From the NCBI GenBank assembly GCA_028695935.1, contig JAQVHY010000017.1, positions 1 through 35,822 of the forward strand: a stretch of 35,822 nt of DNA, in the 5' to 3' direction. The position numbers and the translations under genes were made by a program. Of the stretch, positions 2,941 to 35,822 are shown one piece after another; position 1 is the stretch's first letter; every line of letters starts with the position of its first letter. Below the pieces are notes generated by a model. The model did no database searches, had not been told where the DNA came from, and saw nothing but the letters and a program-made list of their open reading frames with translations. The stretch comes from Desulfobacca sp. (GTDB lineage: Bacteria > Desulfobacterota > Desulfobaccia > Desulfobaccales > Desulfobaccaceae).

Positions 2941-3225
2941 CTAGGGGGAGTAATGCAATATTCTGCACTGGTGCAATATTCTGCAACGGACCGCGAGGTC
3001 CAGGACGGTGCGGGCGCGTTCGACCTTGGCGCGGGATACACCGACAAGCTGGGCAGTCTCCTTTGCTGATGCCGACTTACCGGTATCAATGCCCTCATTT
3101 GAGGGTTTTGATTTTTCTTGATAATCCACCGACTTATGATCCCATTCCCGCCTTCTCCGTTGGTCCAGCGCCTCAATACATCTGATGATCTCTGCATCGG
3201 TTAGGTTCCGTCGCTCGCTGGAGGA
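2941..3225 (-). pseudogene. Decayed ParB/KorB-like HTH fragment
   Basis: An open frame without a convincing start encodes NLTDAEIIRCIEALDQRRRR and later SASAKETAQLVGVSRAKVER. This resembles the helix-turn-helix segment that follows the nuclease-like domain of plasmid ParB-type proteins. An in-frame TAA (3226-3228) lies just upstream, and no N-terminal ParB domain is found. The 3' end runs into the 44-bp repeat at 2961-3004, which replaces the expected continuation with out-of-family sequence. It is best read as the remnant of a partition or replication-control gene; a short peptide from the GTG at 3127-3129 cannot be excluded. Confidence 0.4.
2961..3004. repeat. 44-bp palindromic repeat, copy A
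   Basis: Matches 3421-3464 with two mismatches, the copies being exactly 460 bp apart. It contains TTCTGCAC direct repeats around a TGCACnGGTGCA palindrome and a GGACC-GCGA-GGTCC hairpin. Copy A overlaps the end of the decayed ParB-like frame. Confidence 0.7.
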
Positions 3226-3265
3226 TTATTGGCGGGAGCGGTGGGATATGGGAAGGAGCACAGCA

Positions 3266-3343
3266 TATCAATTGATAGATTCTTCAATAGTAATTGAAAA
3301 TGTCCGCAATTGCGGACAAATCAGATGTAAACCATGGTTTACA
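3266..3343. promoter_or_regulatory. Cluster of four palindromes (operator or origin element)
   Basis: Four symmetrical sites occur within 78 bp: TATCAATTGATA (3266-3277), TTCAAT-4-ATTGAA (3283-3298), TGTCCGCAATTGCGGACA (3301-3318) and TGTAAACCATGGTTTACA (3326-3343). The last two are perfect 18-bp palindromes that both begin TGT and end ACA, with centres 25 bp apart. No gene starts next to them. They adjoin the iteron block, so they may be sites for a replication regulator. Confidence 0.55.
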
Positions 3344-3420
3344 AAAACCCGCTAATGAGCGTCCTACCCGCCCGCTAATTTCCCCGTCTCCCTCAAGTGA
3401 GGAAGACGGGTTGTGCACTA

Positions 3421-3464
3421 TTCTGCACCGGTGCAATATTCTGCACCGGACCGCGAGGTCCAGG
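3421..3464. repeat. 44-bp palindromic repeat, copy B
   Basis: Second copy of the element at 2961-3004, with a perfect TGCACCGGTGCA core. Here it is in non-coding DNA just before the iteron block, which argues that the element is a repeat in its own right rather than only part of the decayed gene. Confidence 0.7.
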
Positions 3465-3500
3465 TTGGTTCTAATCCCAAAATTTACCCCCTAAAGAAAA

Positions 3501-3711
3501 TGCCGCCATTTTTGCCGCCAACCTGATGGCGGCATTTAAGTAGTTAATATTTATATCGAAAGAGTGTCTGCCGCCACTCTAGATATATAAGGTGTGGGAA
3601 ATATATTTTATTTTCCCACACCCCCCCTCTCTTTTTTTGGCGGCACATATAAATCCATAAGAATTTTTAATAGTTAAGTGCCGCCAAACAGTGGCGGCAA
3701 AAATGGTGGCA
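3501..3711. other. Candidate replication origin with TGCCGCCA iterons
   Basis: Seven exact copies of TGCCGCCA occur in about 210 bp: forward at 3501, 3513, 3569 and 3679, and inverted at 3527, 3638 and 3692. A degenerate inverted copy is at 3704-3711. Two pairs form hairpins (3513-3534 and 3679-3699). Between 3577 and 3637 is an AT-rich stretch and a nested 11-bp inverted repeat. The array directly abuts the 3' end of the Prim-Pol replication gene. Iteron arrays beside a rep gene are the usual layout of plasmid origins, so oriV is the simplest reading. The initiator that binds is not proven. Confidence 0.6.
3591..3622. repeat. 11-bp perfect inverted repeat nested in the iterons
   Basis: GGTGTGGGAAA (3591-3601) is mirrored by TTTCCCACACC (3612-3622) with a 10-bp AT-only spacer. 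It is flanked symmetrically, 14 and 15 bp away, by TGCCGCCA (3569-3576) and its inverse TGGCGGCA (3638-3645), giving a two-tier 77-bp dyad. Confidence 0.7.
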
Positions 3712-3716
3712 TTTCA

Positions 3717-5783
3717 CTAGTTCACATTTAGCCAATAGATCTTTTCTTGGGGATTGTAGCTTAAATCCTTCTCTGCCAAGAGGTTTTTAACGGCCTGATT
3801 CCAAAGCCACACCCCCACACGGTGTTTATGGCCCCGTTTTTCAAGATCACGTTTCCTGAGCGGTCCATTTGTCAGCAACCGCCTGATGGTCTCCTCGATT
3901 TTTGCACCCGCGTTGTCAGCGTCTATCGGATCCGCGTACCGCCGGGCTGCCAGCTCATAGTTGAGTAGAGCAACGGTTTGGTCGGCTATCTCAGGCGTAA
4001 CAACGTCCAGGTGCTCGTTAATGGCCAACAGCACCATGAGCCGGTGCCCGTAGGTGTCCAGACGTTTGGCGGAGGGTGATCGCTCCTGGCCTAAGTACCA
4101 AGCCTCGAAAATATCAGACGCTGCTGAGGTCAGGGGCATTTCGTAAAGCCCCCCACAAGAGCCAGCAAGACCGTCAACAAATTTTAGGGTAGCCCCAATG
4201 TCGGCCGTCAATCCGGCCTTAACTGTCTCGGGGATAACCGCAGGGATGGCGTATTTTCGTTCAGAATTACCAATTACTATAAATAGCCGGTTGATAAAAC
4301 CAATGTCCAAAAACTGAGGGGTAAACATATTTTTGTAGGTGTCTAGTGTGGACGCTGCCAGCAGTGACAGGTGGGCGTCGTTGAGGTCTATAGATCGTTT
4401 TAGCGTTACCGACCGGAAAAAATTCTCCTCGAACAAGGTGTTTACCGCAGGGAGCAGGATAGAGGCTTCAATTTTGCATTTTTGCACCAGGGTTTTTAGC
4501 TCGTCCTGCACCAGGATAGCCCGGGACATCTCCTCGGTTTTACCCAGGGCCTTGGCTAGCCCTTCCCCGCTGCCCACACCATAGATCAGATTAAATTGAT
4601 CCGGTTGGATTGTCTGCCGAAATAGGGATATGGTCTTACTAATAGCTGTAGATTTTCGGTCGTCGGCGCTCTCTCCTAATAGCACCGTATATAGTCGGGG
4701 CTGGGGGCGCAGTTCAGTTTTTAGCGTGATTGTTCCGGAAATAAGGTTACCTAAGATGGTCAGGTAGCTGAAAAAGAGAAACGACTTACAACACTCCAAA
4801 TACTGAGAGTAGGTCTCGGCGTATCTCCCGGCTACACCTCCAATAACCTGTGCCGGCAACTCTGGTATAGGATCTTTGACGGGTGCCGGTACTAGGACAG
4901 GTGTCGGTGCGTTAGGCCGATACCTCATGACCGACCTGGCGATCCTGGCAACCTCGGCGTCGTCCAGGGGCGGTTGACAGCGGGCCCGGTTTTCGACTTC
5001 GAGAGCCGCCCGGATTGCCGCCTCGCCAAATCCTCGCCGCCGCATGGTCCCGGCCAGACTAGTCAGGGTGAGGTTGCGCTGGCCGTCCAGGATAGGCTGC
5101 CCGTCGGTTAATGCCTGGGCCTGGGACTGCTGGGCTGGCGGGGTCTGGATTAATCGGAGTAGCCAATCAGGTATTGAGGATAGTGGAGTGGTTTCGGGCC
5201 GATAATCCCAACTATACTGACGTCCGGAGTTATGGTTTGATGGCGGCGCTACCACGCAACCGCCGTCGGCTTTAAAGTCCACGCCGGCGTATCCGGCCAG
5301 GCCGCCAGCGTTTTTTACCGAATCACCAGGATGCCGGAGGTAATAATGCTGCCCCCCGCCTCCGGTGGCAACGGTCGGGGTCAGGGGTAGATTGCCGGGG
5401 AGTTTTTTGATATCGCCGCCGTTGCGGGGGTCGATATCCAGCACCACCAGACCGGATGCCTGGCCGGTAGCGACGCCGATATTGGCCTCGGGGTATTGGG
5501 TCCACCACTCTCGTATAATGGCCTGGTCGGTAGTGGCGTCGTGCACGCCATGGAGTACTAGTTTCCCGAGGGGGTGTTTGCCCGGGTTGCCGCACTCGGG
5601 GTTACCACAGGCGCAACGTCCGTCCTCGGTAACCCACCAGAGGGGGATAACCGGCCAGCCGCGGCGGGCGTAGTCCAGGGCTGGGGTTAGGAGATTAAGA
5701 TATTTTACTTTTTCTGAAATTGATTCGGATTTTAAACGGTTTTTACCCAAAAAATCATTGACATGATCAGTATCTTGTGGCAT
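3717..5783 (-). CDS. Prim-Pol primase/polymerase with PriCT and DUF3987-like ATPase domain (replication protein)
   Basis: Predicted replication protein of 688 aa. Residues about 35-215 form a bifunctional primase-polymerase domain: a Cys cluster (C57, C59, C64) before GKHP, the metal-binding LDIDP motif (D116, D118), the GGGGQHYYL segment (H146) and VDFKADGGCVVAPPS. Residues about 230-292 match the PriCT_1 helical domain. From about 305 to 560 is a DUF3987-like ATPase region with a P-loop written GESADDRKST, which lacks the Gly usually before the Lys, and a Walker B-like ILVQDEL. Such proteins prime and unwind replicons of plasmids and phages. The gene abuts the iteron array downstream. The ATG start lacks a strong ribosome-binding site. 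The function is well supported by family; which origin it uses is inferred. Confidence 0.85.
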   Translation of the reverse strand: MPQDTDHVNDFLGKNRLKSESISEKVKYLNLLTPALDYARRGWPVIPLWWVTEDGRCACGNPECGNPGKHPLGKLVLHGVHDATTDQAIIREWWTQYPEANIGVATGQASGLVVLDIDPRNGGDIKKLPGNLPLTPTVATGGGGQHYYLRHPGDSVKNAGGLAGYAGVDFKADGGCVVAPPSNHNSGRQYSWDYRPETTPLSSIPDWLLRLIQTPPAQQSQAQALTDGQPILDGQRNLTLTSLAGTMRRRGFGEAAIRAALEVENRARCQPPLDDAEVARIARSVMRYRPNAPTPVLVPAPVKDPIPELPAQVIGGVAGRYAETYSQYLECCKSFLFFSYLTILGNLISGTITLKTELRPQPRLYTVLLGESADDRKSTAISKTISLFRQTIQPDQFNLIYGVGSGEGLAKALGKTEEMSRAILVQDELKTLVQKCKIEASILLPAVNTLFEENFFRSVTLKRSIDLNDAHLSLLAASTLDTYKNMFTPQFLDIGFINRLFIVIGNSERKYAIPAVIPETVKAGLTADIGATLKFVDGLAGSCGGLYEMPLTSAASDIFEAWYLGQERSPSAKRLDTYGHRLMVLLAINEHLDVVTPEIADQTVALLNYELAARRYADPIDADNAGAKIEETIRRLLTNGPLRKRDLEKRGHKHRVGVWLWNQAVKNLLAEKDLSYNPQEKIYWLNVN

Positions 5784-5880
5784 AATTTAATTATCTTTCT
5801 GGGGCGCGAAAGTCCCGGTTATTACCTTTCTGGGTGTAGGCCCGGGTAGGTTGATTGCCTTGAAAAAAGTTTTTGTTTTG

Positions 5881-5910
5881 CCAAAGCCCGGGGGGTCAAC
5901 CGGGCTTTGG
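5881..5910 (+). terminator. Rho-independent terminator
   Basis: A perfect 11-bp stem, CCAAAGCCCGG with CCGGGCTTTGG and an 8-base loop, is followed on the plus strand by CTTTTTTT. It also lies just beyond the 3' end of the minus-strand XRE gene, where the hairpin could work in reverse but has no T-run. Confidence 0.6.
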
Positions 5911-5916
5911 CTTTTT

Positions 5917-6105
5917 TTATGGGCGGTTTTTAATTTTTTCTTTAGTCATATAACACAACAACTTAGGCACCCACTTGGGTATTTTACGCCGTCCCTGCTC
6001 CCAGGCTTCGACAGTGCGCGGACTCGTACCTATCGCGACTGCGAATTGATCACGATTCCGAAAACCTAGAGATTTTCGGATGCTACGGATCTCGTCTGGG
6101 GTCAT
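5917..6105 (-). CDS. XRE-family HTH regulator, 62 aa, probably leaderless
   Basis: A minimal Cro/C1-type DNA-binding protein with helix-turn-helix FAVAIGTSPRTVEAWEQGRR followed by KIPKW. It is a paralogue of the regulator at 2317-2520. No ribosome-binding site precedes the ATG, but a TTGACA-16-TACCAT promoter ends so close that the transcript should start at or next to the ATG; leaderless mRNAs are known for phage repressors. An imperfect dyad (CACTACT with AGCAGTG) overlaps the promoter spacer, consistent with self-repression. It lies between the replication gene and the divergent plus-strand genes and may control one or both. Confidence 0.75.
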   Translation of the reverse strand: MTPDEIRSIRKSLGFRNRDQFAVAIGTSPRTVEAWEQGRRKIPKWVPKLLCYMTKEKIKNRP

Positions 6106-6112
6106 GGTCTGT

Positions 6113-6140
6113 ATGGTACACTACTACAGAGCAGTGTCAA
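6113..6140 (-). promoter_or_regulatory. Promoter and operator of the leaderless XRE gene
   Basis: TTGACA (6135-6140) and TACCAT (6113-6118) on the minus strand with 16 bp between. The dyad CACTACT/AGCAGTG occupies the spacer. The expected start site is about seven bases past the -10, at the ATG (6105). Confidence 0.6.
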
Positions 6141-6267
6141 GAAAAAAATTTTAACCGCCTTAAAAAACTATGAAATTTTATGATACAACGAAACCAGCAG
6201 CGGTTAGAAAATCACCGGCCTACCGGGACTAAACCGACAAAGGGGGCAAGAAACAATACTCCCGGAG

Positions 6268-6507
6268 TTGAAGACGCTTCGGCAGGATGTTTCTGAAATA
6301 AAAGGCATTCTCTCTCTGACCAACAAGCGTTTGGATGATGTCAATACGCACTTAGTCGATCAGAGCCGCCGCATCGACGAAACCAACAAGCGCCTGGACC
6401 GGCTTTACGAAGTGATTGTAAGGCGGGAAGAACATGAGCAATTGTCAGCCCGGGTGCAGCGATTGGAAGAGGCTATGGCAAACCTGGAAAAGAGGATAAC
6501 AGCCTGA
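6268..6507 (+). CDS. Small coiled-coil protein, 79 aa
   Basis: Almost the whole chain is a predicted coiled coil rich in Leu, Glu, Arg and Asn, with the repeat NKRLDDVNTHL then NKRLDRLYEV. There is no signal peptide or membrane segment. The only usable start is a TTG (6268-6270) with CGGAG immediately upstream, and a GGGGG run lies further off, so the exact start is uncertain. Similar short coiled-coil proteins are common on mobile elements without a defined job. It precedes the IHF-like gene on the same strand, 62 bp away, and may be co-transcribed. Confidence 0.5.
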   Translation: MKTLRQDVSEIKGILSLTNKRLDDVNTHLVDQSRRIDETNKRLDRLYEVIVRREEHEQLSARVQRLEEAMANLEKRITA

Positions 6508-7539: not shown

Positions 7540-8838
7540 TCAATGATTTTTGTCCAAACATTCCAACATCTCCCGATCCCTCTCCGCCATCACTTCGTCG
7601 AAGGCCTTCCGCATGGCCATCTCGAAAAGCTCAATCCGGGTAGATTTCTGAGCAAAGTGATTCAGCTGATTATAGCAGGTCTGATAAAGCTCTCCTTCCG
7701 GGTTGTTCATCATCTCCCGAAAAGCCAGTTCTCTTTCCTGGTCTATTTTAGCCTGCTGGATTTCCCGAAGCTCCTGTAATTTCTGCTCCTGCTCGGCCAG
7801 GGCTTGTTTTTCCAGTTCGACCTGCTTATCCAGGTAGGATTTATAGACCTTGGGAGCCGGGTAATAGCCGGCCCGTTCAATTACCCGGAAAAACCAGTTG
7901 AAGACGTTTTCGATGGGCTTGGACTTCTCGTGGTCCAGGTCCACCATCTCATAGCGGCAATGGCATAAGGATTTAACCATGTTGTTCAAGGTGGCGCCGG
8001 TGAGCTTCATCCACTGTTCGATCTGCTTGGCGGTCAGACCCTTTTGCCGCCAGTAACCTAGTTCGGGGTGAGTGGCCAGAGTTTCTTCTATGGATTTTGT
8101 GAGATTGTGATTTTCCTTAGTAGTAGTAGGTACTTTTAAAAAACTACTACTACTAATAGGTAAATTTGACAATTCAACTGACTGGTCAACTGACTGGTCA
8201 ACTGACTGGTCAACTGACTGGTCAACTGACTGGTCAATGATTTTTATAAAACGATTACAAAGAGGTTCGTCTAATTCATAACTAAAACCAATACAGGAAC
8301 CATCTTTTTTTAATTTTGTTTTTGTAATAAAGCCCTTTTGTTTTAAAATCTGCACGGCATCTTTAACAGAACCTAGGGCGACACCGGTTATTCCAGATAT
8401 GATTTTTCTATTGGTAAATTTGTTTTTTTGGACCTTTAAAAATAATAAAACTTTCACTTGCTTATCAGTTAAACGGATTTCCGGGAATGGCTTAACCGTT
8501 TTGTCAAGTGACTGGTCAACTGACTGGCTAACTGACTGGTCAAGTGACTGGCTAACTGGTTGGGCAACCGACTGGTCAAGTGACTGGCTGTCTGACTGTC
8601 CAGCTAACTGTCCAACTAACTGGCTGTCTGACTGGCTAACTGGCTGACTGACTGGCCAAGTGACTGGTTTTTGTTCAAGTGACTGGTCAAGTGAATGGTC
8701 AAGTGACTGGTTGACTGACTGGTTTTTATTACCATCTCTGATCACATCGGCAGCACGATTAACAATGTCCTCTAAACTCTCAGAGGCATTGCGATGGACT
8801 TCGTCGAGCCAACTACGTCTCTTTTTTTTGGTCTCCAC
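7540..8838 (-). CDS. ParA-linked winged-helix protein with QSVD tetrapeptide repeats, 432 aa
   Basis: GTG start with GGGAG six bases upstream, 45 bp downstream of parA and on the same strand. Residues about 39-113 and 205-226 are tandem tetrapeptides of the form Q-S-V/L-D. Between them (about 120-195) is a winged-helix-like domain (LTDKQVKVLLFLKVQ, then RKIISGITGVALGSVKDAV). Residues about 240-320 form another helical domain, and 330-430 are a long charged coiled coil. The position after parA suggests a partition partner (ParB role) or a replication initiator. I do not recognise the family. The repeats are tandem at DNA level too. Confidence 0.65.
   Translation of the reverse strand: METKKKRRSWLDEVHRNASESLEDIVNRAADVIRDGNKNQSVNQSLDHSLDQSLEQKPVTWPVSQPVSQSDSQLVGQLAGQSDSQSLDQSVAQPVSQSLDQSVSQSVDQSLDKTVKPFPEIRLTDKQVKVLLFLKVQKNKFTNRKIISGITGVALGSVKDAVQILKQKGFITKTKLKKDGSCIGFSYELDEPLCNRFIKIIDQSVDQSVDQSVDQSVDQSVELSNLPISSSSFLKVPTTTKENHNLTKSIEETLATHPELGYWRQKGLTAKQIEQWMKLTGATLNNMVKSLCHCRYEMVDLDHEKSKPIENVFNWFFRVIERAGYYPAPKVYKSYLDKQVELEKQALAEQEQKLQELREIQQAKIDQERELAFREMMNNPEGELYQTCYNQLNHFAQKSTRIELFEMAMRKAFDEVMAERDREMLECLDKNH
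8175..8234. repeat. Five exact 12-bp tandem repeats within the repeat protein
   Basis: CAACTGACTGGT is repeated five times without a mismatch. Each unit contains TGACTGGTCA when joined to the next, a near-palindrome. A second, degenerate tract of the same unit spans about 8505-8730. The units encode the tetrapeptide DQSV on the minus strand. Confidence 0.85.
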
Positions 8839-8883
8839 CTGCTTCTCCCGCTGCCACTTGACTATTTCCTATCGCCAATCAAC

Positions 8884-9696
8884 CTACAAAGCCTGTAGGG
8901 TAATCTTTTGGGGCCACACCTTATCAAGAATAATCAATAATTCTCTTGATAGTTCTTTGTATGCCTTTGCTCCAGTAGCATTTGGCCGAAAACGGCATAG
9001 GGTTTTATCAGATAGCTCGGCTTGTTGAAATGCTGTATTAATTGGTATGGTAGTTTCAAAAACCTCGTCTTCGCCAAAAGTTTTTTTAATCTGTTGCAAA
9101 ATAGCGGTTGAGGCTATTGTTCTGCGGTCAACTTTCGTAATTAATAGTCTTAATAGTTTAAGATCGGGATTAGCTTTCTCTCTTATATCATTAATGAAGG
9201 AAATAGCTTTAATTAAGCCTTCCAGACTAAATTTAGATCCAGCATCATTTGGAACTATTACAAAATCGCTCATATAAAGACTCATGGCGACAATAAGGCC
9301 TAATGTTGGAGGATTATCAACCAAAATTATATCATAATTATCTTTGGCATATTCTCTTATTTTTTCTCGATAAAGGTATAAACTATTTGGAAATGCTTTT
9401 GCTAAAAAAATCTCTAAGGCAGAAACCATTTCATCGTTAGGCAAACAAGATACATTTGAATATTTCGTGAAGTGGATACAATCACTCACCTGAATAGCAT
9501 CTTTGATGAGATTATACATAGTATTTGTATAATCAATACCATCTAATAATATTTTTGAGGAATTACACTGACTATCGTTATCAATAACAAGAACGTTTTT
9601 ATCATTTTTCCCAAGTATGTGCGCCAAGTTACAGGTAGTCGTTGTTTTTCCTGTCCCCCCCTTATTATTAATTATAGATATTATTACTCCACTCAT
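8884..9696 (-). CDS. parA: ParA-family partition ATPase
   Basis: Deviant Walker A motif NNKGGTGKTTTT close to the N-terminus, a second motif VLVIDNDSQCN, and Walker B region IILVDNPPTLG, the hallmarks of ParA/Soj ATPases that move plasmid copies over the nucleoid. I place the start at the ATG of MSGVIISIINNKGG, the normal N-terminus of the family. A longer frame from the ATG at 9780 adds 28 residues (MGNLFNRKEERCF...) and has only a weak AGG upstream, so the true start is unsettled. The short form lacks the N-terminal HTH of P1-type ParA. The gene is strongly AT-rich. No ParB follows; the next gene is the repeat-rich winged-helix protein. Confidence 0.85.
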   Translation of the reverse strand: MSGVIISIINNKGGTGKTTTTCNLAHILGKNDKNVLVIDNDSQCNSSKILLDGIDYTNTMYNLIKDAIQVSDCIHFTKYSNVSCLPNDEMVSALEIFLAKAFPNSLYLYREKIREYAKDNYDIILVDNPPTLGLIVAMSLYMSDFVIVPNDAGSKFSLEGLIKAISFINDIREKANPDLKLLRLLITKVDRRTIASTAILQQIKKTFGEDEVFETTIPINTAFQQAELSDKTLCRFRPNATGAKAYKELSRELLIILDKVWPQKITLQAL

Positions 9697-9837
9697 ATTA
9701 TTTTTTCGCGCTGTGGTGACTCCGGCAAGAATGCCGGAGAGGAAACAACGCTCCTCCTTTCTGTTAAAAAGGTTGCCCATTTAACCTACTTAATCAGAAG
9801 CATGATAGGTGACAGGTATACTAGCTATCTTGGTTGC

Positions 9838-10095: not shown

Positions 10096-13000
10096 ATGGC
10101 TGACCATTTTAAGACCTATCTCCAATCTCTGCGATCTGATCTGGCCAGGGGCAACGCCTCTGAGCACACTCACCGGCCATCCTTCAAGATTTTATTGGAA
10201 TCCCTGGGGGACCGGCTTACCGCTACCAATGAACCCCGGCAAGTTACTGAGTGCGGCAAGCCTGATATGGCGGTGTATCAGGGCCCGGTGCTCCTGGGCT
10301 ATGTCGAAACCAAGGATGTAGGGGTCAACCTGGATGCAGAGGAACGCAGCCCCCAGCTAAAACGCTATCGCGACGCCCTACCGAACCTAATTCTTACCGA
10401 CTATCTGGAATTTCGCTGGTATGTGAACGGCGAGCGGCGGGTCACGGCGTCATTGGGAACCATGGCCCGGGACGGCCGGGTCAAGGCCAGGACAGGAGGC
10501 CAGGCTGCGGTTGGAGAGTTGCTATCTCAATTCCTGACCCTCAAGCGTCCCTCGGTGACTAAGGCCAAAGATCTGGCGGAGAGAATGGCGAAGCTGGCCG
10601 GCTTAATGCACCATGCCGCCCTCAAGACCCTGGAAATTGAGCCTGACACCGGAACCCTTAAAGGCTGGCTGGCGGCCTTTGAAAAGACCCTGCTGCCCCA
10701 CCTGGCGCCCGATGAGTTTTCCGATATGTATGCCCAGACCCTTAGCTATGGACTATTCGCGGCCAAGATGAGTATGAAGGATGGCCAGGAATTACGTCGG
10801 GATACCGCCGCTAGCGTGTTGCCCGAAACCAATCCTTTGCTCCGAAGCCTGTTTTATCATCTGGCCGGCCCGGAAGTTCCGCCTACGGTGTCTTGGGTAA
10901 TTGATGATATCGTGAATCTGCTCAACGCTGCCGACATGGAAGCGGTCATGGCCGATTTTGGCCGCGGGTCCCTGGAAAAAGACCCGGTAGTTCACTTCTA
11001 TGAAACCTTCCTGGCGGCCTATGACCCGGAAAAGCGGAAAGTGCGGGGAGTTTATTATACCCCGGAGCCGGTAGTCTCCTATATCGTCCGGGCCATTGAC
11101 CATCTTCTCAAGACCCGGTTTGACCGCTCCTGGGGCTTGGCCGACCCCAAGACCTTGATTCTGGACCCGGCCTGCGGCACCGGGACTTTTCTCTATAGCG
11201 TTATCTCTTTGATTTACGATACCCTGTGCGCCCAGGGCCAGGCTGGGGGTTGGGCCGCTTACGTCTCTCAAAGCCTCCTGCCTCGCATATTCGGCTTTGA
11301 GTTACTCATGGCCCCTTACGCCGTTGCGCACCTAAAGCTGGGGTTGCTCTTGCAGGAAAAGGGCTTTGACTTCCCGCCGGGGCTGCGCCTGGGGGTTTAT
11401 CTTACCAATACCCTGGATGAGGGGTTTAAAAAGGCTGAGGTCCTGCCGTTAACCGGGTTCATTGCCGAAGAAAGTAATCGGGCTGCCCAGATTAAGAAAG
11501 ACGACCCCATAGAGGTGGTCTTGGGCAATCCGCCTTATGCCGGCCACTCTGCCAATGCCAGCTTGCATCGCCTAATCGACCCCAAGACCGGGAAGGTAAA
11601 AACCGAGCGCACCTGGATCGGCAAACTGATTGAGGATTACAAGAAGGTGGACGGAAGGCCCTTGGGTGAAAAGAACCCCAAATGGCTGCAAGACGATTAC
11701 GTAAAGTTTCTCCGCTGGGGCCAGTGGCGCATTACTCGGACAGGCCAGGGGATCCTGGCGATGATTACCAATCACGGTTATCTGGATAATTCCACCTTTC
11801 GGGGCATGCGGCAACAGCTAATGCAGACCTTTAGCGAAATCTACCTGCTGAACCTCCACGGCAACGCCAAGAAAAAAGAGGTCTGCCCCGATGGTTCCAA
11901 GGACGAAAACGTCTTTGACATTCAACAAGGGGTAGCAATCGGGGTATTTGTGAAAATCCCTGACTCGCCAGGTCCGGCCCGGGTGCATTATGCGGATCTT
12001 TGGGGGATAAGGGAGGATAAGAACCGGACCCTGGGTCAAATGGAGGTTATCAGCACGTCCTGGCAAGAGCTTCAGCCGCAATCGCCCTATTATCTGTTCG
12101 TCCCCCAGGATACGGACTTGCGGGCCGAATATGAGCGGGGCTGGCCGGTAAATGAAATTTTTCCGGTCAACTCCGTGGGGCTGGTGACCGCCCGGGACAG
12201 CCTGACCATTCGCTGGACCCGGCAAGAGGTAATAGATACGGTGAAAGACTTCGCCGCCTTGGACCCGGAAACGGCCAGGGAGAAATATAACCTGGGGAAA
12301 GATGTTCAAGATTGGAAAGTCGAATGGGCACAGAGAGACCTAAGAAGTTCGGGCCAGGAAGAAAGCTTAGTGTCGCCGATCTTATATCGTCCCTTTGATG
12401 TGCGTTACACCTATTATACTGGTCAATCACGTGGGTTTATATGCAGGCCTCGATCAGAAGTCATGGACCACATGCTGGCAGGTAAAAACCTGGGCTTAGT
12501 TTGCTCAAGACAACAAGCCCAAAAGACCATGTGGTCATTAGTCGGAGTCGCCGATAAAATAATCGAAAGTTGTTATATATCTGCCAATACCAAAGAGATT
12601 AACTATTTGTTTTTGCTATATCTCTATATTAACGCGGGAAAAGCCGAAAACAATCAAAAGCGGCTGCCCAATTCATATCACTGGCATATTAGCTCCGAAG
12701 GCCGTGTTCCCAACCTCAACTCCGAATTTGTCGAGTACTGGTCTCAACGCCTAGGTTTGGGTTTTGTGCCCGAGGGTCGGGGCGACCTCGAAAACACCAT
12801 AGGGCCAGAGGACATATTTTATTACGCCTATGCAGTCTTCCACTCCCCCACTTACCGGCAGCGTTACGCCGAATTTTTAAAACTGGACTTCCCCCGCCTG
12901 CCCTTAACTGGCAACCGGGCCCTCTTTAAGGCCCTGGTGGACCTGGGGGCGGAATTGGTATCCCTTCACTTGATGGAGTCACCGCGCCTGGAAAAGTTCA

Positions 13001-13314
13001 TAACCAGATTCCCGGTCCCTGGCTCTCAGGTAGTGGAACAGGTAAGATACCAGGACACGGGCAGGCGGGTTTATATCAACGCAGAGCAATATTTTGAAGG
13101 TGTGCCGCCGGAAGTGTGGGCCTTTACTATCGGCGGCTATCAGGTCTGCCACAAGTGGCTCAAGGACCGCAAAGGCCGGACCCTGACCTTTGAAGACCTG
13201 CACCACTACCAGAAGGTCGTGGCGGCTCTGGCCGAAACGATTCGACTCATGGGAGAGATTGACGAGGTAATCCTATCCCATGGCGGTTGGCCGATAGATC
13301 GGGAGAGAGAATGA
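10096..13314 (+). CDS. Single-chain type IIG / ISP-like restriction-methylase, 1072 aa
   Basis: A combined restriction and N6-adenine methylation enzyme. The N-terminal nuclease motif is KPD (P56, D57) with E71-T-K73, a PD-ExK site. The methylase motif I is LDPACGTGTF (from about residue 356) and motif IV is GNPPY (N478-Y481). The region from about 650 onward matches the specificity half of type ISP enzymes. Unlike true type ISP enzymes it has no helicase between nuclease and methylase, so the type IIG class fits better. No separate specificity or methylase gene is nearby. It would cut unmodified foreign DNA and protect its own. The start ATG follows a long leader without a strong ribosome-binding site. 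Confidence 0.85.
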   Translation: MADHFKTYLQSLRSDLARGNASEHTHRPSFKILLESLGDRLTATNEPRQVTECGKPDMAVYQGPVLLGYVETKDVGVNLDAEERSPQLKRYRDALPNLILTDYLEFRWYVNGERRVTASLGTMARDGRVKARTGGQAAVGELLSQFLTLKRPSVTKAKDLAERMAKLAGLMHHAALKTLEIEPDTGTLKGWLAAFEKTLLPHLAPDEFSDMYAQTLSYGLFAAKMSMKDGQELRRDTAASVLPETNPLLRSLFYHLAGPEVPPTVSWVIDDIVNLLNAADMEAVMADFGRGSLEKDPVVHFYETFLAAYDPEKRKVRGVYYTPEPVVSYIVRAIDHLLKTRFDRSWGLADPKTLILDPACGTGTFLYSVISLIYDTLCAQGQAGGWAAYVSQSLLPRIFGFELLMAPYAVAHLKLGLLLQEKGFDFPPGLRLGVYLTNTLDEGFKKAEVLPLTGFIAEESNRAAQIKKDDPIEVVLGNPPYAGHSANASLHRLIDPKTGKVKTERTWIGKLIEDYKKVDGRPLGEKNPKWLQDDYVKFLRWGQWRITRTGQGILAMITNHGYLDNSTFRGMRQQLMQTFSEIYLLNLHGNAKKKEVCPDGSKDENVFDIQQGVAIGVFVKIPDSPGPARVHYADLWGIREDKNRTLGQMEVISTSWQELQPQSPYYLFVPQDTDLRAEYERGWPVNEIFPVNSVGLVTARDSLTIRWTRQEVIDTVKDFAALDPETAREKYNLGKDVQDWKVEWAQRDLRSSGQEESLVSPILYRPFDVRYTYYTGQSRGFICRPRSEVMDHMLAGKNLGLVCSRQQAQKTMWSLVGVADKIIESCYISANTKEINYLFLLYLYINAGKAENNQKRLPNSYHWHISSEGRVPNLNSEFVEYWSQRLGLGFVPEGRGDLENTIGPEDIFYYAYAVFHSPTYRQRYAEFLKLDFPRLPLTGNRALFKALVDLGAELVSLHLMESPRLEKFITRFPVPGSQVVEQVRYQDTGRRVYINAEQYFEGVPPEVWAFTIGGYQVCHKWLKDRKGRTLTFEDLHHYQKVVAALAETIRLMGEIDEVILSHGGWPIDRERE

Positions 13315-27693: not shown

Positions 27694-30546
27694 TTACCTC
27701 TCTAATTGGATCTCGCGTTCCCGCCCGGCCCGCTCCATCCCTGGGTCACGATCTGTCTCTCTCTGGCGGTCCTCGCGCTCGCCTAGCGCCTGCTCCTTTT
27801 CGCCGGTCCGCTCGCTGACGGCCTGCCGCAAAGCGTCAGCGCTGTTGGTGTAGATTTTTACCTCGTCCCGGGCCCGGGATACCCCCACGTATAACGATCT
27901 CTGTGTCGTCAGATTAGCCCGGTGGCTCTCGGCATGGATTAGCGCCCGGTCCGCGGTGTGGCCCTGGGCGGCGTGCGCGGTGATGGCGTAGCCGTGAGTC
28001 CAGTGTTGGTTATCTCGTAGATTTACGGTCGTAACCTGCCCGTCCCGCCCCATGATTTCGGCGTTGCCATTGCGGTCCAGGCTCTTGATCAGCCCGATCT
28101 GGCCGTTGATGATGCCCGCGTCCTTATCGTTTTTGTTAAAAATGATCTTGTCGCCCTGGCTAACCTCAATCTCCTGGGTTTTGTAAACCTCAACTTTGGA
28201 CAGCCGGGCCGGAATCCAGTCTAATTTCTGGTCGCCCCGGCCCAAAGTGACTTTATCCTGGTCACGGCCTTCCACGCGCCAATAACTCCCCTTATCTATC
28301 CCGTGTTTGGCGTAGCCGCGGCCAAACCGCACCACGTCTCCCAATTTATAGCTGCCGACCCTTTTTATTTCCGCCTGGGTCAGGCCCCGGCGCTCCAAAA
28401 CCTCGGTTTTAAGCCCTGCCTGACTGACCGTGCCCTCGGTTTTTAGTCCCTCTCTAATCGCCTCGTTGATAGCCTTCCGGTCATCGTGGCCGGGGGCAAT
28501 CACCAAGGTTTTCTCACGATCTGCCGGTGATAGGGCCAGGTAATCTGTTGCGATGGCTCCGGCCCGGGCCCCCAGGCCGGCGTCCCGATCTCCTACCCGG
28601 CTGCCCTCTACCGGCGGATTACTAATCTCTATTACTCCCCCCCGGCCATCTATCTCCCTGAGCGCCCGGGCTGCCTGGCCGGAGTAGGCCTGCTCCACCG
28701 CGGTCAGTAATTGGCGGTCACGCTGGCGTAGAATAGTCTCCAATTTATAGGTTTGCACCCGCTCTTGGACCTGCGCAAAAGCCCGGCCCGCCTCTACGCT
28801 GCCTAACTGTTGGGTGTCGCCAACCAGCACCAGGCGGGCGTTGTGGTCTTCGGCGGCGTGGAGTAAGCTGTTAAATTGCTTGGCCCCCACCATGCTCGCC
28901 TCGTCCACTATCCACAGGGATGACGCCGACGGCGGCTGCTCTTGTTGGGCTTGGGGGTTGCCCTGGGCCTGGGCCTGCTCTTTAGCCGCTTCGATCTTGG
29001 CCTGCCTCAACTCGCCTAACCAGGAGTGGACGGTCTGAGATTGGATTCCCGCCCCTGATTCTAGCGCCCGGGCTGCCGACGCGCTAGGGGCCAGGCCCCT
29101 GATATCGTAGCCCTGCTCCCGGGCCTCTGCCGCCACAGTCCGAAGCACGGTCGAAGTTTTAGCGCTCCCCGCGGCCCCCTGCACCGCCACTACCCGGTCA
29201 CGGGTGGTCAATATCCCCTCGGCGGCCTGGCGCTGCTCCTGGTTCCAGCTATAGCTGCTCCCGTTACTCTCGGCCCTGGCGATAGCGGCCCGGGCCTGGT
29301 CCGGGCTGGTAATGCCTTCCCCCATGGCCCCCCGGCCGCGTTGCGCTGCGGATAATAACTGGTGCTCTATTTTCTGACCCTGCCGGGTGGTGTAGCCGGC
29401 CTCGGTTTGGCGGGAGTTCCAGAGGCTAGCCACGGGCTTAGAGATTAACTCCCCTCGGTCCTTAAGATCTTTAATCGCCTGATCTATCTCTGCGCGGGTG
29501 GCCACTCCGAAAAATCGGCTGTTAATAGTCTCCGCTAGATCCCGCACTCTAAACGCCGCCGACCGCTCGGCCAGATGTTCGATACTCATTTTTACCGCCT
29601 GCTCCGCCTCGGCCCGCCGGTCGATCTGGGGTTGCTGGGCGGCCTGGGCGTGGGCCTGGGCTACCAGGTGCCGGGTGTCGTATCCTAACCCCGCGGCCCG
29701 CTCCTGCCAGTGCCGAGTCAACTGGTCCCGGTCTAGATCTACCTTGGCGGCGCGGGTGGCCAGGCACGATACCTCTCGCTCCTGAGTGGTGGCCGTCTCC
29801 CGGGTTTTGCCCTTTTCGGCCAGGTCCGCCTCAATCGCCTGGCTGCGCTGTGAAAAATGGTCTCTAATTTCCTGCGGCACTGCGGCTAGCTCCATCCGGC
29901 CCCGCTCCTGGTCGATCTCCACCTGGTAGCCCAGGGCCTGGGCCCGGACTGCCAACTCCGACTGATAGATCCGGTCGGCCAAGGCCCGGACCCGATAGGT
30001 CTCCCGGCCCTCAATGGACCGCCATTGGCCGTCGGCCCGCTGGGTGGCGTTAATAATGACGGAATGGGTGTGCAGTTGCGGATCCTGCGCCCGGCTGGTT
30101 TTATGGCAAAACGTCGCAATCGCCAGGTTGCCGGTGTTCTCCCGGTGGGTCTCGCCGGACACCTTCACCCTGGTGACCGCGGCCTCGCGCTCTATCCAGT
30201 CCAGGGTAGTTTTGACGGCCCGCTCATGGGCCTCAATCAGCCTATCGTCTCCCCCTACCAGTGCGGCAACCGATACTGATTTGGGGGCGGAAAGAGTTAA
30301 ATCGTAACCCGGAATGTGCTCCCGCTGGCCCTCGCTGTTAATCCGCCCCAGGGTGGTACCGTCAGACAGCCGTCCGTCTAATAGCCGGGTAAAGGTCTCC
30401 CGGTCTACCGGTCCGTCTAGCCTCAGGGCCTCGGCCCCCCGGCCATGCCACGCTGACGGCGACTCCTGGTTATGGGTATAGTAGTCGTCCCTGCGGAAAT
30501 ACGATGCGGCCTGGCCGGGGGAACTGATGGGGTTGATTGAGATCAC
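27694..30546 (-). CDS. traI: MobF relaxase-helicase (TraI/TrwC family), 950 aa
   Basis: Catalytic tyrosines lie in YFRRDDYYTH (Y16 and Y22/Y23), and the three metal-binding histidines are H148, H159 and H161 in DPQLHTHSVIIN. This is the TrwC layout that nicks and covalently holds oriT. A superfamily 1 helicase follows: Walker A GAAGSAKT (K463), Walker B LWIVDEASM, and a late HAAQGHTADRALI motif. It is shorter than F TraI (1756 aa) and near R388 TrwC (966 aa). The GTG start overlaps the traD stop as GTGA, so the two are coupled. The tail after the helicase is highly charged. Confidence 0.92.
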   Translation of the reverse strand: MISINPISSPGQAASYFRRDDYYTHNQESPSAWHGRGAEALRLDGPVDRETFTRLLDGRLSDGTTLGRINSEGQREHIPGYDLTLSAPKSVSVAALVGGDDRLIEAHERAVKTTLDWIEREAAVTRVKVSGETHRENTGNLAIATFCHKTSRAQDPQLHTHSVIINATQRADGQWRSIEGRETYRVRALADRIYQSELAVRAQALGYQVEIDQERGRMELAAVPQEIRDHFSQRSQAIEADLAEKGKTRETATTQEREVSCLATRAAKVDLDRDQLTRHWQERAAGLGYDTRHLVAQAHAQAAQQPQIDRRAEAEQAVKMSIEHLAERSAAFRVRDLAETINSRFFGVATRAEIDQAIKDLKDRGELISKPVASLWNSRQTEAGYTTRQGQKIEHQLLSAAQRGRGAMGEGITSPDQARAAIARAESNGSSYSWNQEQRQAAEGILTTRDRVVAVQGAAGSAKTSTVLRTVAAEAREQGYDIRGLAPSASAARALESGAGIQSQTVHSWLGELRQAKIEAAKEQAQAQGNPQAQQEQPPSASSLWIVDEASMVGAKQFNSLLHAAEDHNARLVLVGDTQQLGSVEAGRAFAQVQERVQTYKLETILRQRDRQLLTAVEQAYSGQAARALREIDGRGGVIEISNPPVEGSRVGDRDAGLGARAGAIATDYLALSPADREKTLVIAPGHDDRKAINEAIREGLKTEGTVSQAGLKTEVLERRGLTQAEIKRVGSYKLGDVVRFGRGYAKHGIDKGSYWRVEGRDQDKVTLGRGDQKLDWIPARLSKVEVYKTQEIEVSQGDKIIFNKNDKDAGIINGQIGLIKSLDRNGNAEIMGRDGQVTTVNLRDNQHWTHGYAITAHAAQGHTADRALIHAESHRANLTTQRSLYVGVSRARDEVKIYTNSADALRQAVSERTGEKEQALGEREDRQRETDRDPGMERAGREREIQLER

Positions 30547-34336: not shown

Positions 34337-34902
34337 CTTTGTGCTTGGGGGTAGGGGAGGCGTAACCGCATCGCTATATTTTCGGCCAGTTGCTCGCATG
34401 CTCGTTCATGGACGTTCGCCAGATCAGCATAGGACAGCCCGTATAGGATTTCCGGATCGTCGCGGAGGATGCAGCCATATGACTGCCAAATATGGTAGGA
34501 TAACACCCGATTATCTAACTCGCGGATGCGGTCCTCATATATAGCGTACGGGGCTAGGGATCCCGGGCCTGGATGTGCCAGGGCCGTTAGGATGCCTATT
34601 AGGTCTGGCTGTGCCGGACCTAAGGCTACCGCGTCGCGGTAGGCCAGATCTAGATCTACACCAGCCACTAGGCGGTCCACCGCCCGGTCCAGGCGAGAAG
34701 ATTTATTTTTGCATAAGTAAGCTAAGCCATAAGCGGCCAAATCATCGGAACAAATTATCAAGCCCGACGGCAACTTGGCTGCTCTTAGTTGTCCCATGTT
34801 TATCGCCCTCCTTAATGTGCGCGTGCTTACTCTCAGGATTTGAGCTGCCTCGTCCAGGTGGTAAGCCTTTTTGGTTTTGTTTTGTTTTTTTGGGCGGTCC
34901 AT
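34333..34902 (-). CDS. Excisionase/MerR-like HTH protein, copy 2 (complete), 189 aa
   Basis: Full-length version of the gene cut at the left edge. I set the start at the ATG of MDRPKKQ with AAGGAG upstream; a longer frame from 35007 would run back through the terminator. Residues about 12-55 form the helix-turn-helix (YHLDEAAQILRVSTRTLRR). The rest is helical with no recognised domain. It is the first gene of the leftward operon leading to the coiled-coil protein. It may regulate transfer, or act as an accessory oriT-binding factor comparable in place, not in sequence, to TrwA. Confidence 0.75.
   Translation of the reverse strand: MDRPKKQNKTKKAYHLDEAAQILRVSTRTLRRAINMGQLRAAKLPSGLIICSDDLAAYGLAYLCKNKSSRLDRAVDRLVAGVDLDLAYRDAVALGPAQPDLIGILTALAHPGPGSLAPYAIYEDRIRELDNRVLSYHIWQSYGCILRDDPEILYGLSYADLANVHERACEQLAENIAMRLRLPYPQAQR
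34622..34748. repeat. 127-bp segment identical to the left edge (1-127)
   Basis: Positions 1-127 match 34622-34748 without a mismatch; base 128 (c) differs from 34749 (a). Beyond that, homology continues at lower identity. The exact length equals a common assembly k-mer size. Confidence 0.9.
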
Positions 34903-34956
34903 AGTTTGACTCCTTGTCAATTTTATGTCCAATTTTATCCATGATATATAATATAA

Positions 34957-34985
34957 CCCATAGCTTGTAAATATATTTTTGTCAA
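34957..34985 (-). promoter_or_regulatory. Promoter for HTH gene copy 2
   Basis: TTGACA (34980-34985) with TATGGG (34957-34962) after 17 bp on the minus strand; weaker -10 than the copy at 336-364. Confidence 0.5.
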
Positions 34986-35010
34986 TATAATTTATTTTTT
35001 TAGACAATAA

Positions 35011-35034
35011 AAAGCCCTGAATAGTCAGGGCTTT
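35011..35034 (-). terminator. Rho-independent terminator, copy 2
   Basis: Stem AAAGCCCTGA/TCAGGGCTTT with loop ATAG, followed on the minus strand by T-rich sequence. It ends the transcript of the 65-aa gene. Confidence 0.75.
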
Positions 35035-35057
35035 AAATAACCAATATATTTAAGCAG

Positions 35058-35255
35058 TTAGCGTATTACCACGAACTCCGGCGGCTCTTTGATCTCCCAT
35101 ATAAGCCGCCGCATGCCGGGAAAATAATCACGAGCCAATCTTTCCAGGGCGGCGTTTAAGGCTTCGATGTCCTCGTCGGTATAGGCGCTGCGGTCGGATT
35201 TCCACATGCCGGGCTGGAATTTGCCGGGGATTAATTTCAGGTTCGGGCGGGTCAT
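35058..35255 (-). CDS. Small hypothetical protein, 65 aa (intact copy)
   Basis: ATG preceded by AAAAAGG. The sequence starts TRPNLKLIPGKFQPGMW, continues with an acidic helix (DEDIEALNAALERLARDYF) and ends EPPEFVVIR. There is no signal peptide or membrane segment, and the family is unrecognised. Its paralogue at 446-502 is truncated by a 133-bp deletion. Its probable promoter is flanked by TAGACA/TGTCTA sites (35354-35378 and a half-site near 35276), so it appears tightly regulated. Confidence 0.65.
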   Translation of the reverse strand: MTRPNLKLIPGKFQPGMWKSDRSAYTDEDIEALNAALERLARDYFPGMRRLIWEIKEPPEFVVIR

Positions 35256-35353
35256 TAAATTACCTTTTTATCATTTTGTCTAGAGTTCGGGGTTTGGCCG
35301 GATGCGAAAACCCGCGGTTGATCTATGCCATAAATTTTCAGAAAAGTTAACTC

Positions 35354-35378
35354 TAGACAGTTTGTGTCATTCTGTCTA
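35354..35378. promoter_or_regulatory. TAGACA-N13-TGTCTA operator, copy 2
   Basis: Here the dyad is longer and perfect: AACTCTAGACAG and CTGTCTAGAGTT, 12 bp each, around an 11-bp spacer (35349-35383). It abuts a likely -35 (TTAACT) of the 65-aa gene. A further half-site lies between promoter and start codon. Confidence 0.55.
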
Positions 35379-35400
35379 GAGTTCGATTGCCGGGTGCGGG

Positions 35401-35457
35401 TTATTTGATCACCTTGAGATAGGGCTTGCCGCCGCCCTGAATGACCTGTAGCTGCAT
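35401..35457 (-). pseudogene. 18-residue deletion derivative of the MQLxVIxGGG family
   Basis: Reads MQLQVIQGGGKPYLKVIK and stops. It joins the N-terminus of the 63-aa protein (1181-1372) to its own C-terminus, with the whole centre removed in frame, apparently by recombination between GCCGC-like repeats at the two conserved ends. It still has a GGAG-type ribosome site and could be translated as a micropeptide. Confidence 0.5.
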
Positions 35458-35494
35458 CCTTCTCCTCTGGGTTTAGCTTTATGGGGTGGGGGGG

Positions 35495-35674
35495 TTATTT
35501 AACTACCTTGAGTTCAGGCCTGCCAAGAATGTGGTTGGATAGGAATTTGAAAAATCGACGGTGTCTGGGGTCTGAAACCTTATCGGCTTCGTAATAAAGG
35601 TATTCGGCCCACTCAAGATCGTTTTGGGATAATTCGCGGGGCCTGCCGCCGCCCTGAATAACTTTAAGCTGCAT
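35495..35674 (-). CDS. Small MQLKVIQGGG-family protein, 59 aa (second block)
   Basis: Starts MQLKVIQGGGRPRELS and ends HILGRPELKVVK. It is the counterpart of 1677-1856, with which it shares almost every residue. The ATG follows GGGGGTG, and an overlapping GTG six bases upstream couples it to the preceding gene. Function unknown. Confidence 0.7.
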   Translation of the reverse strand: MQLKVIQGGGRPRELSQNDLEWAEYLYYEADKVSDPRHRRFFKFLSNHILGRPELKVVK

Positions 35675-35676
35675 TA

Positions 35677-35822
35677 TCACCCCCTGTCGGCTAATTTATA
35701 TGCAACCTGGATGATCGCCCGGGTTTGCTCCGGGGTGGCGCCGGCGGCCTGTAGAGCCTCAGCCCATTCAAAGTCTGACCTAAGTCCTGGATATTGGCGA
35801 TCTTTCAGATAAGCAATAAAAA
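35677..35822 (-). CDS. Small helical protein, partial (cut by right edge)
   Basis: The C-terminal 47 residues of a third member of the 1859/2065 family: FIAYLKDRQYPG, then a Trp-centred helix and ATPEQTRAIIQVAYKLADRG. The start is beyond the window. Its stop overlaps the GTG alternative start of the next gene. Confidence 0.65.
   Translation of the reverse strand, partial: FIAYLKDRQYPGLRSDFEWAEALQAAGATPEQTRAIIQVAYKLADRG

Follow-up and report, generated by a model that had tools for sequence, protein, structure and literature searches.

The locus described here raises the question of whether a compact array of short repeats lying immediately 3′ of a primase-helicase gene is the site at which its element begins replication and, if so, which protein reads the repeats. 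The window, that is, the whole stretch of DNA that was analysed (35,822 bases), is contig 67 of a 3.17-Mb draft genome. Genes for a TrwC-type relaxase, a coupling protein, TraN, TraH and TraU, together with ParA and a DnaD-like gene, mark the contig as either a conjugative plasmid or an integrative conjugative element. Its ends (1–1986 and 34622–35804) are diverged duplicates of one another (88–94% identity in the larger blocks); a helix-turn-helix gene is included in them, and in a circular element they would form a tandem duplication across the junction. Between the maintenance and transfer genes lies the gene for a type ISP restriction-modification enzyme of 1072 aa (10096–13314). At 7540–9780, ParA is followed by the DnaD-like gene, whose internal 12-bp tandem repeats (TCAACTGACTGG) occur as 5.3 perfect copies at 8174–8237 and as ∼19 degenerate copies at 8503–8723; one of two Desulfosarcina plasmids carries 11-bp repeats in and after its DnaD-like gene, with 12.4 copies downstream, and the ParA/DnaD-like locus is a possible second initiator/iteron origin or centromere.

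Our analysis suggests, with a probability of about 0.87, that the block at 3501–3711 is a cis-acting replication origin of a plasmid-like element, recognised by the protein of the adjacent gene. It is most likely bound by this protein as a self-loading helicase, since the block is kept beside the gene in relatives and the sequence of the repeat tracks residues of the winged helix. An origin bound by the neighbouring initiator had been put forward in the original prediction and is strongly supported by the comparison of homologues.

The block spans 211 bp and, because the Prim-Pol/helicase gene (3717–5783, minus strand, 688 aa) ends at 3717, it abuts the gene, its end at 3711 lying 5 bp beyond the stop codon. 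This agrees with the predicted contact with the end of a Prim-Pol replication gene, and the seven exact 8-bp iterons predicted in both orientations are likewise present as copies of TGCCGCCA; an eighth copy with one mismatch (TGGTGGCA/TGCCACCA) had not been named but lies within the predicted block. Starting at the gene, the block has first a pair of direct copies spaced by 12 bp, the gene-side outer pair (the eighth copy at 3704–3711 and an exact one at 3692–3699, both minus), then an inverted third copy (3679–3686, plus), an inner copy (3638–3645, minus) and the AT-rich centre. Beyond the centre follow another inner copy (3569–3576, plus) and then the mirror image of the first three, comprising an inverted third copy (3527–3534, minus) and the far outer pair, again 12 bp apart (3513–3520 and 3501–3508, both plus). 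Owing to the eighth copy the two ends of the block are mirror images, with the 23-nt end arms (3498–3520 and 3692–3714) being 96% complementary.

Such an arrangement is far from what the composition of the window would produce. The word TGCCGCCA occurs as 12 exact copies in the whole window against 1.95 expected, a number reached in none of 100 shuffles, and the largest cluster of any 8-mer within 250 bp was three copies in 20 Markov shuffles versus the seven found in the block. Other 8-mer clusters in the window (5 and 6 copies) fall inside predicted coding sequence, and no second comparable mirrored array was found elsewhere in it. No DnaA boxes were found near the block, the only DnaA-box-like matches in the window being at 29849 and 31398. 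A switch in GC skew at the block is only partly borne out: the sign does change nearby, from negative (3001–4000) to positive (4001–6500), but the change is weak and the cumulative minimum of the window lies at ∼32 kb, so that GC skew is no clear origin marker here. Two 51-bp direct repeats (2954–3004 and 3414–3464; 94% identity) flank ∼410 bp that contain perfect palindromes (3301–3318 and 3326–3343) and short out-of-frame helix-turn-helix-like gene pieces with weak matches to hypothetical proteins on cyanobacterial plasmids.

The adjacent initiator gene encodes a Prim-Pol domain (aa 35–207; PF09250, E 6.5e-41), PriCT_1 (aa 230–291), a DUF3987-like helicase (∼aa 307–620) and a C-terminal winged helix (∼aa 623–688; 3720–3917, minus strand), which is the proposed iteron reader with K649, H652 and R655 as candidate specificity residues. 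The helicase part gave weak helicase family matches and no hit in a Pfam scan of the window's own sequence; DUF3987 (PF13148), hit in five of 13 relatives (best 2.9e-9), was the only family hit, with no match to DUF927 or D5/Primase_Cterm in the family members. A sequence search found no solved relative of the helicase, and the mean quality of the model of its core was too poor to use (pLDDT 43.5). A Walker-A-like GESADDRKS/T motif and a DE motif are kept in the sequence, and the helicase is therefore likely to be an active ATPase. The C-terminal 78 residues are predicted to form a winged helix (mean pLDDT 81.8; model residue n corresponds to protein residue 610+n), with helix 2 at 644–650, a turn, the recognition helix from ∼653 and two wing strands. 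Foldseek searches with this model returned generic winged helices only, all of them weak (best E 0.0099 among the 50 matches listed).

Single-sequence searches of genome and viral collections with the full-length protein returned only partial relatives, and alignments were needed for further loci; an alignment of the helicase and C-terminal part then gave such loci in genomes and viral contigs. With the helicase part, the plasmid collection gave no match and the phage collection one weak match, and a search of viral contigs with the DNA pattern of the far arm gave none. Two of the closest relatives are on contigs named Deltaproteobacteria. G020 and G016 have aa 303–683 in common with the window protein at 56–58% identity and differ from it in the N-terminus; the former has the same TGCCGCCA array with nearly unchanged spacing, and the latter another word, TGTCATCA, in the layout seen in the window. 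The inverted third copy of the far arm is at the same place, within 1–2 bp, in both of these and in G073 and G108, the inner copy on the far side of the centre is also found in G020 and G016, and the inner copy on the gene side has a counterpart in G020.

Regions 3′ of the homologous genes were scanned for two 8-mers 12 bp apart with a mirrored pair 140–240 bp away. Thirteen close homologues scored 30–32 of 32, where 30 shuffles of each gave maxima of 25–26; five further homologues scored 30–32 and another two 31 and 32. Homologues that have the replication gene and lack the repeats, which would have spoken against the original prediction, were sought, and the opposite was found: each of the 20 distinct close homologues with the helicase and C-terminal winged helix has a mirrored repeat block adjoining the stop codon of its gene. 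These homologues are a small set drawn from draft or metagenome assemblies or viral contigs, in which V085 and V086, identical over the stretch read, are counted once. In their common plan, a pair of 8-bp repeats at a distance of 12 bp is followed by a centre that is mostly AT-rich and by the mirrored pair, over a span of 177–222 bp. Spacing and span are nearly fixed while the iteron word varies from element to element, being TGCCGCCA, TGTCATCA, TGTCAGCA, TGTCCCCA, TGTAGCCA, CATAGTCA, TGTCACCA, TAGCACCA, TGTAGACA, TGTAGTCA, TGCATACA or TGTCACAA. In V055 and V056 the gene-side pair lies within the coding sequence, which argues against an ordinary intergenic regulatory region. The distant homologue G276 scored 27, no better than its own shuffles; 3′ of its helicase gene are 12-bp-spaced repeats (CGATGTAGTAA) without the mirrored layout, beside a different C-terminal domain, and these are possibly a related origin type.

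Within the block, the centre contains an AT-rich stretch with TATATA words (3583–3608), an oriented purine tract on the gene strand (AAAAAAAGAGAGGGGGGG; 3621–3638, minus) and an 11-bp dyad (GGTGTGGGAAA/TTTCCCACACC; 3591–3601/3612–3622). The first two have counterparts among the homologues, with TATATA or ATATAT present in 19 of the 20 centres (expectation 5.4; maximum of 11 over 500 simulations) and GAGAG on the gene strand in 12 (expectation 1.2; maximum of 4 in simulations), CTCTC being at chance level (2/20). The dyad, which the original prediction described as a two-tier element at the heart of the block, is real and beyond chance in the window sequence (0/100 shuffles) but is private to this contig, and in no relative did a dyad stand out clearly from chance. 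What is conserved in the centre is therefore AT-richness and a purine motif of fixed orientation, and not a palindrome. Runs of G, also considered as a conserved feature, occur no more often than by chance (11/20 centres; chance mean 8.9).

The helicase and winged helix are present in every carrier of this origin type, and what precedes them varies: Prim-Pol and PriCT_1 in the window, an NrS-1-type polymerase HBD in G020, G073 and V052, a RepB-type primase in G242, a DnaB N-terminal domain in V053 and essentially nothing in V051, V054 and G569. A clear Prim-Pol match is missing from most of the other carriers scanned. Because the N-terminal part is swapped or absent while the rest is constant, the origin travels with the helicase and not with the primase, and Prim-Pol is not the defining partner of the block, being exchanged or missing in relatives. 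In two single-contig genomes (G430:C1:3084815 and G582:C1:3117210) the module is part of the main contig, which makes integrated elements probable carriers as well. The reading frame of the G575 homologue ends after the first half of the helicase, and this is probably a decaying copy. Other Prim-Pol genes with unrelated helicase halves (L026, L027 and L028) share their contigs with clusters of 8-bp repeats that occur in both orientations (GAAGCGTCC; AACTTCAGTA), and these clusters are further candidate iteron origins.

Variation of the word at constant geometry allowed every protein column to be compared with every iteron base by mutual information, in a set of 13 loci and then of 18. With 13 loci, residue 652 was singled out for base 6 and residue 649 was a leading column for bases 3–5. 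With 18 loci and 326 columns with enough data, 652 was the sole full, reciprocal predictor of base 6 (0/5000 permutations; next-best column 0.40) and 649 was the best column for bases 4 and 5 (2/5000 and 0/5000 permutations). The pairs observed are H652–C6, N652–T6, T652–G6 and S652–A6, Q649–A4, and R655–C7 and Q655–A7. Base 7 varies only once, so that the 655 pair is a single observation, which other columns fit equally well; associations of bases 1 and 2 have only one or two variants behind them and are uninformative. Asn and Gln facing adenine is ordinary DNA-recognition chemistry, and both T6 and A4 place an adenine on one strand. In the predicted structure, residue 649 is at the end of helix 2 and residues 652 and 655 are in the turn and at the start of the recognition helix, which is the usual place of DNA contact in helix-turn-helix proteins. 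These comparisons indicate that the repeat sequence tracks winged-helix residues 649 and 652, and perhaps 655.

Predictions made from the protein were written down ahead of reading the DNA of new loci, and were correct for five new homologues and partly correct for a sixth. The words TGTCACCA for V065 and TGTAGCCA for G430 were found as predicted, as was TGTAGTCA, a word new to the set, for G582. For G459, T was predicted at base 6 and the word found is TGTCATCA; for G443, A4 and a base 6 other than C (perhaps G) were predicted and the word found is TGTAGACA. For G569, TGTCACCA was predicted and TGTCACAA/TGTCACAT found, so that bases 4–6 agree and base 7 does not; G569 has Gln in place of Arg at residue 655, a reason for base 7 that was taken up only after the fact. 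V085 has unfamiliar residues at 649, 652 and 655, and a loose guess at its base 6 was wrong.

That the iterons are read by another protein, with the residue-base correlation reflecting shared descent only, is a very unlikely explanation. It would draw on the modest number of loci (about 20), several of them close relatives, and on the word being identical between closely paired loci, for example G073 and G108. Against this, a tree built from the helicase only, with the winged helix left out, scatters the matched changes over four separate events for N652/T6 and five for Q649/A4. Several deep branches of this tree are weak and three of its rows are long, but a single origin of either pair was allowed by none of 200 bootstrap trees. 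Since matched changes arise repeatedly on this tree, shared ancestry alone is insufficient to account for the match. Identical words also occur in distant proteins (G000 and V054; G073, V053 and G430), and the new residue pair of G582 gave a new word as predicted. Still less credible, and close to negligible, is that the block consists of chance repeats, a transcription terminator or a structured RNA following the gene: the strong local dyad at 3591–3622 and T-rich tracts 3′ of the stop codon would suit such an element, but it is the repeats that are conserved and not the dyad, their number and geometry are far above shuffles, and the gene-side pair of V055 and V056 is placed inside coding sequence.

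A more substantial, though still improbable, alternative is that the same protein binds the block as an operator or copy-control (incompatibility) site and that replication starts elsewhere, for example at the repeats of the DnaD-like gene beside parA. Two complete Desulfosarcina plasmids conserve the pair of ParA and DnaD-like genes, the 12-bp tandem repeats in the window's DnaD-like gene and the 11-bp repeats at one Desulfosarcina locus could serve as such a start, and RepA_N-type initiators also bind iterons (PMC7145576). However, the block is 3′ of the gene and not at its promoter, and the mirrored geometry that it constantly keeps around an AT-rich centre is that of an origin (as in PMC6092414); viral and chromosomal contigs carry such blocks as well. 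Moreover, the covarying protein is itself a helicase, and, apart from DnaD_N, no Pfam initiator domain is present in the DnaD-like gene. A replication origin read by the adjacent helicase remains our preferred reading of the block.

For such an origin, we strongly infer from the covariation and the blind predictions that the initiator uses its winged helix to bind each of the 8-bp iterons, with residue 649 reading base 4, 652 reading base 6 and perhaps 655 reading base 7. The paired, mirrored iterons may position two helicase assemblies in opposite orientations around the AT-rich centre, as suggested by the twofold symmetry of the block and by analogy with SaPI Rep. The DUF3987-like ATPase would then melt the TATATA-rich centre and unwind outward, the fused Prim-Pol domain would lay primers and a host polymerase would take over. 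More broadly, it seems probable that these loci represent a family of helicase-origin modules that use a simple winged-helix code, can be separated from the primase and occur in Desulfobacterota-like bacteria on plasmids, chromosomal contigs and viral elements. In this code, Q at 649 would specify A4 and K/R/W mostly C4, H/N/T/S at 652 would specify C6/T6/G6/A6, and R/Q at 655 C7/A7.

The repeat changes together with a few residues at constant geometry, by a rule that predicted origins not yet seen. That initiators match their iterons is known in principle for other replicons, and no residue-to-iteron code for PICI/SaPI, pRN1 or DUF3987 systems was found in the open-access literature searched. 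If the code is true, replicon identity and the compatibility groups of plasmids and phages would be predictable from a few protein residues, and the choice by an origin-binding helicase between its own and a rival origin becomes directly testable. The substitution H652N should move preference from TGCCGCCA toward TGCCGTCA, K649Q should lead to A4 and R655Q to A7, with TGCCGTCA, TGCAGCCA and TGCCGCAA as contrast words to TGCCGCCA.

Comparison with known systems shows that the block is not a categorically new replicon class, a possibility that the original prediction had raised on account of its mixed direct and inverted iterons. An AT-rich centre surrounded by both direct and inverted repeats, located 3′ of rep, is the published organisation of PICI/SaPI origins, and SaPI Rep is reported to appear to bind as two hexamers (PMC6092414, PMC7581432). 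In both systems the origin directly follows the initiator-helicase gene on its 3′ side, an AT-rich stretch lies between two sets of short iterons, the C-terminal domain of the helicase recognises the iterons (here by inference) and the primase is separate or fused. They differ in that the helicase here is DUF3987-like and SaPI Reps are of the DUF927 or D5/Primase_Cterm type, and in that the carriers here are conjugative-plasmid-like, viral and chromosomal contigs and not a phage satellite; no phage-satellite gene set (int, rpr, xis, packaging or interference genes) was seen in the window. By this analogy, the block most likely works like PICI/SaPI origins with a different, DUF3987-like helicase. 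A PICI-like layout beside another helicase family, on conjugative-plasmid and viral contigs, suggests that the layout is a more general solution, perhaps reached more than once.

Other initiators share parts of this design. Phage P4 alpha combines a primase, a helicase and a C-terminal winged helix that binds origin repeats in one polypeptide. The winged-helix part is alike in general form, although P4 alpha is absent from the 50 listed fold matches of our winged helix, and its primase is of the bacterial Toprim type (PMC4234260), in contrast to the Prim-Pol (PF09250) or other primase found here. The crenarchaeal plasmid pRN1 likewise has a Prim-Pol, helicase and winged-helix protein with an essential origin region directly downstream of the gene; its helicase is of SF3 and its origin is a 100-nt stem-loop without iterons (PMC4234260), whereas here iterons are the conserved feature and the central dyad is unique to the window. 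In SCCmec Cch2, of the Primase_Cterm/D5 type, the C-terminal domain of the helicase also binds short direct repeats directly downstream of the operon, with three 5-nt iterons and no mirrored arms described (PMC7581432).

Classical iteron plasmids place iterons and an AT-rich melting region beside rep, and rely on non-helicase initiators that recruit host DnaA/DnaB and on longer tandem iterons. They differ from the present block, with its 8-bp mirrored repeats, helicase initiator and no DnaA box nearby. DUF3987 ATPases fused to primases were predicted to be new replicative helicases (PMC5862659), and our sequence comparisons now attach a putative origin to this DUF3987-like family.
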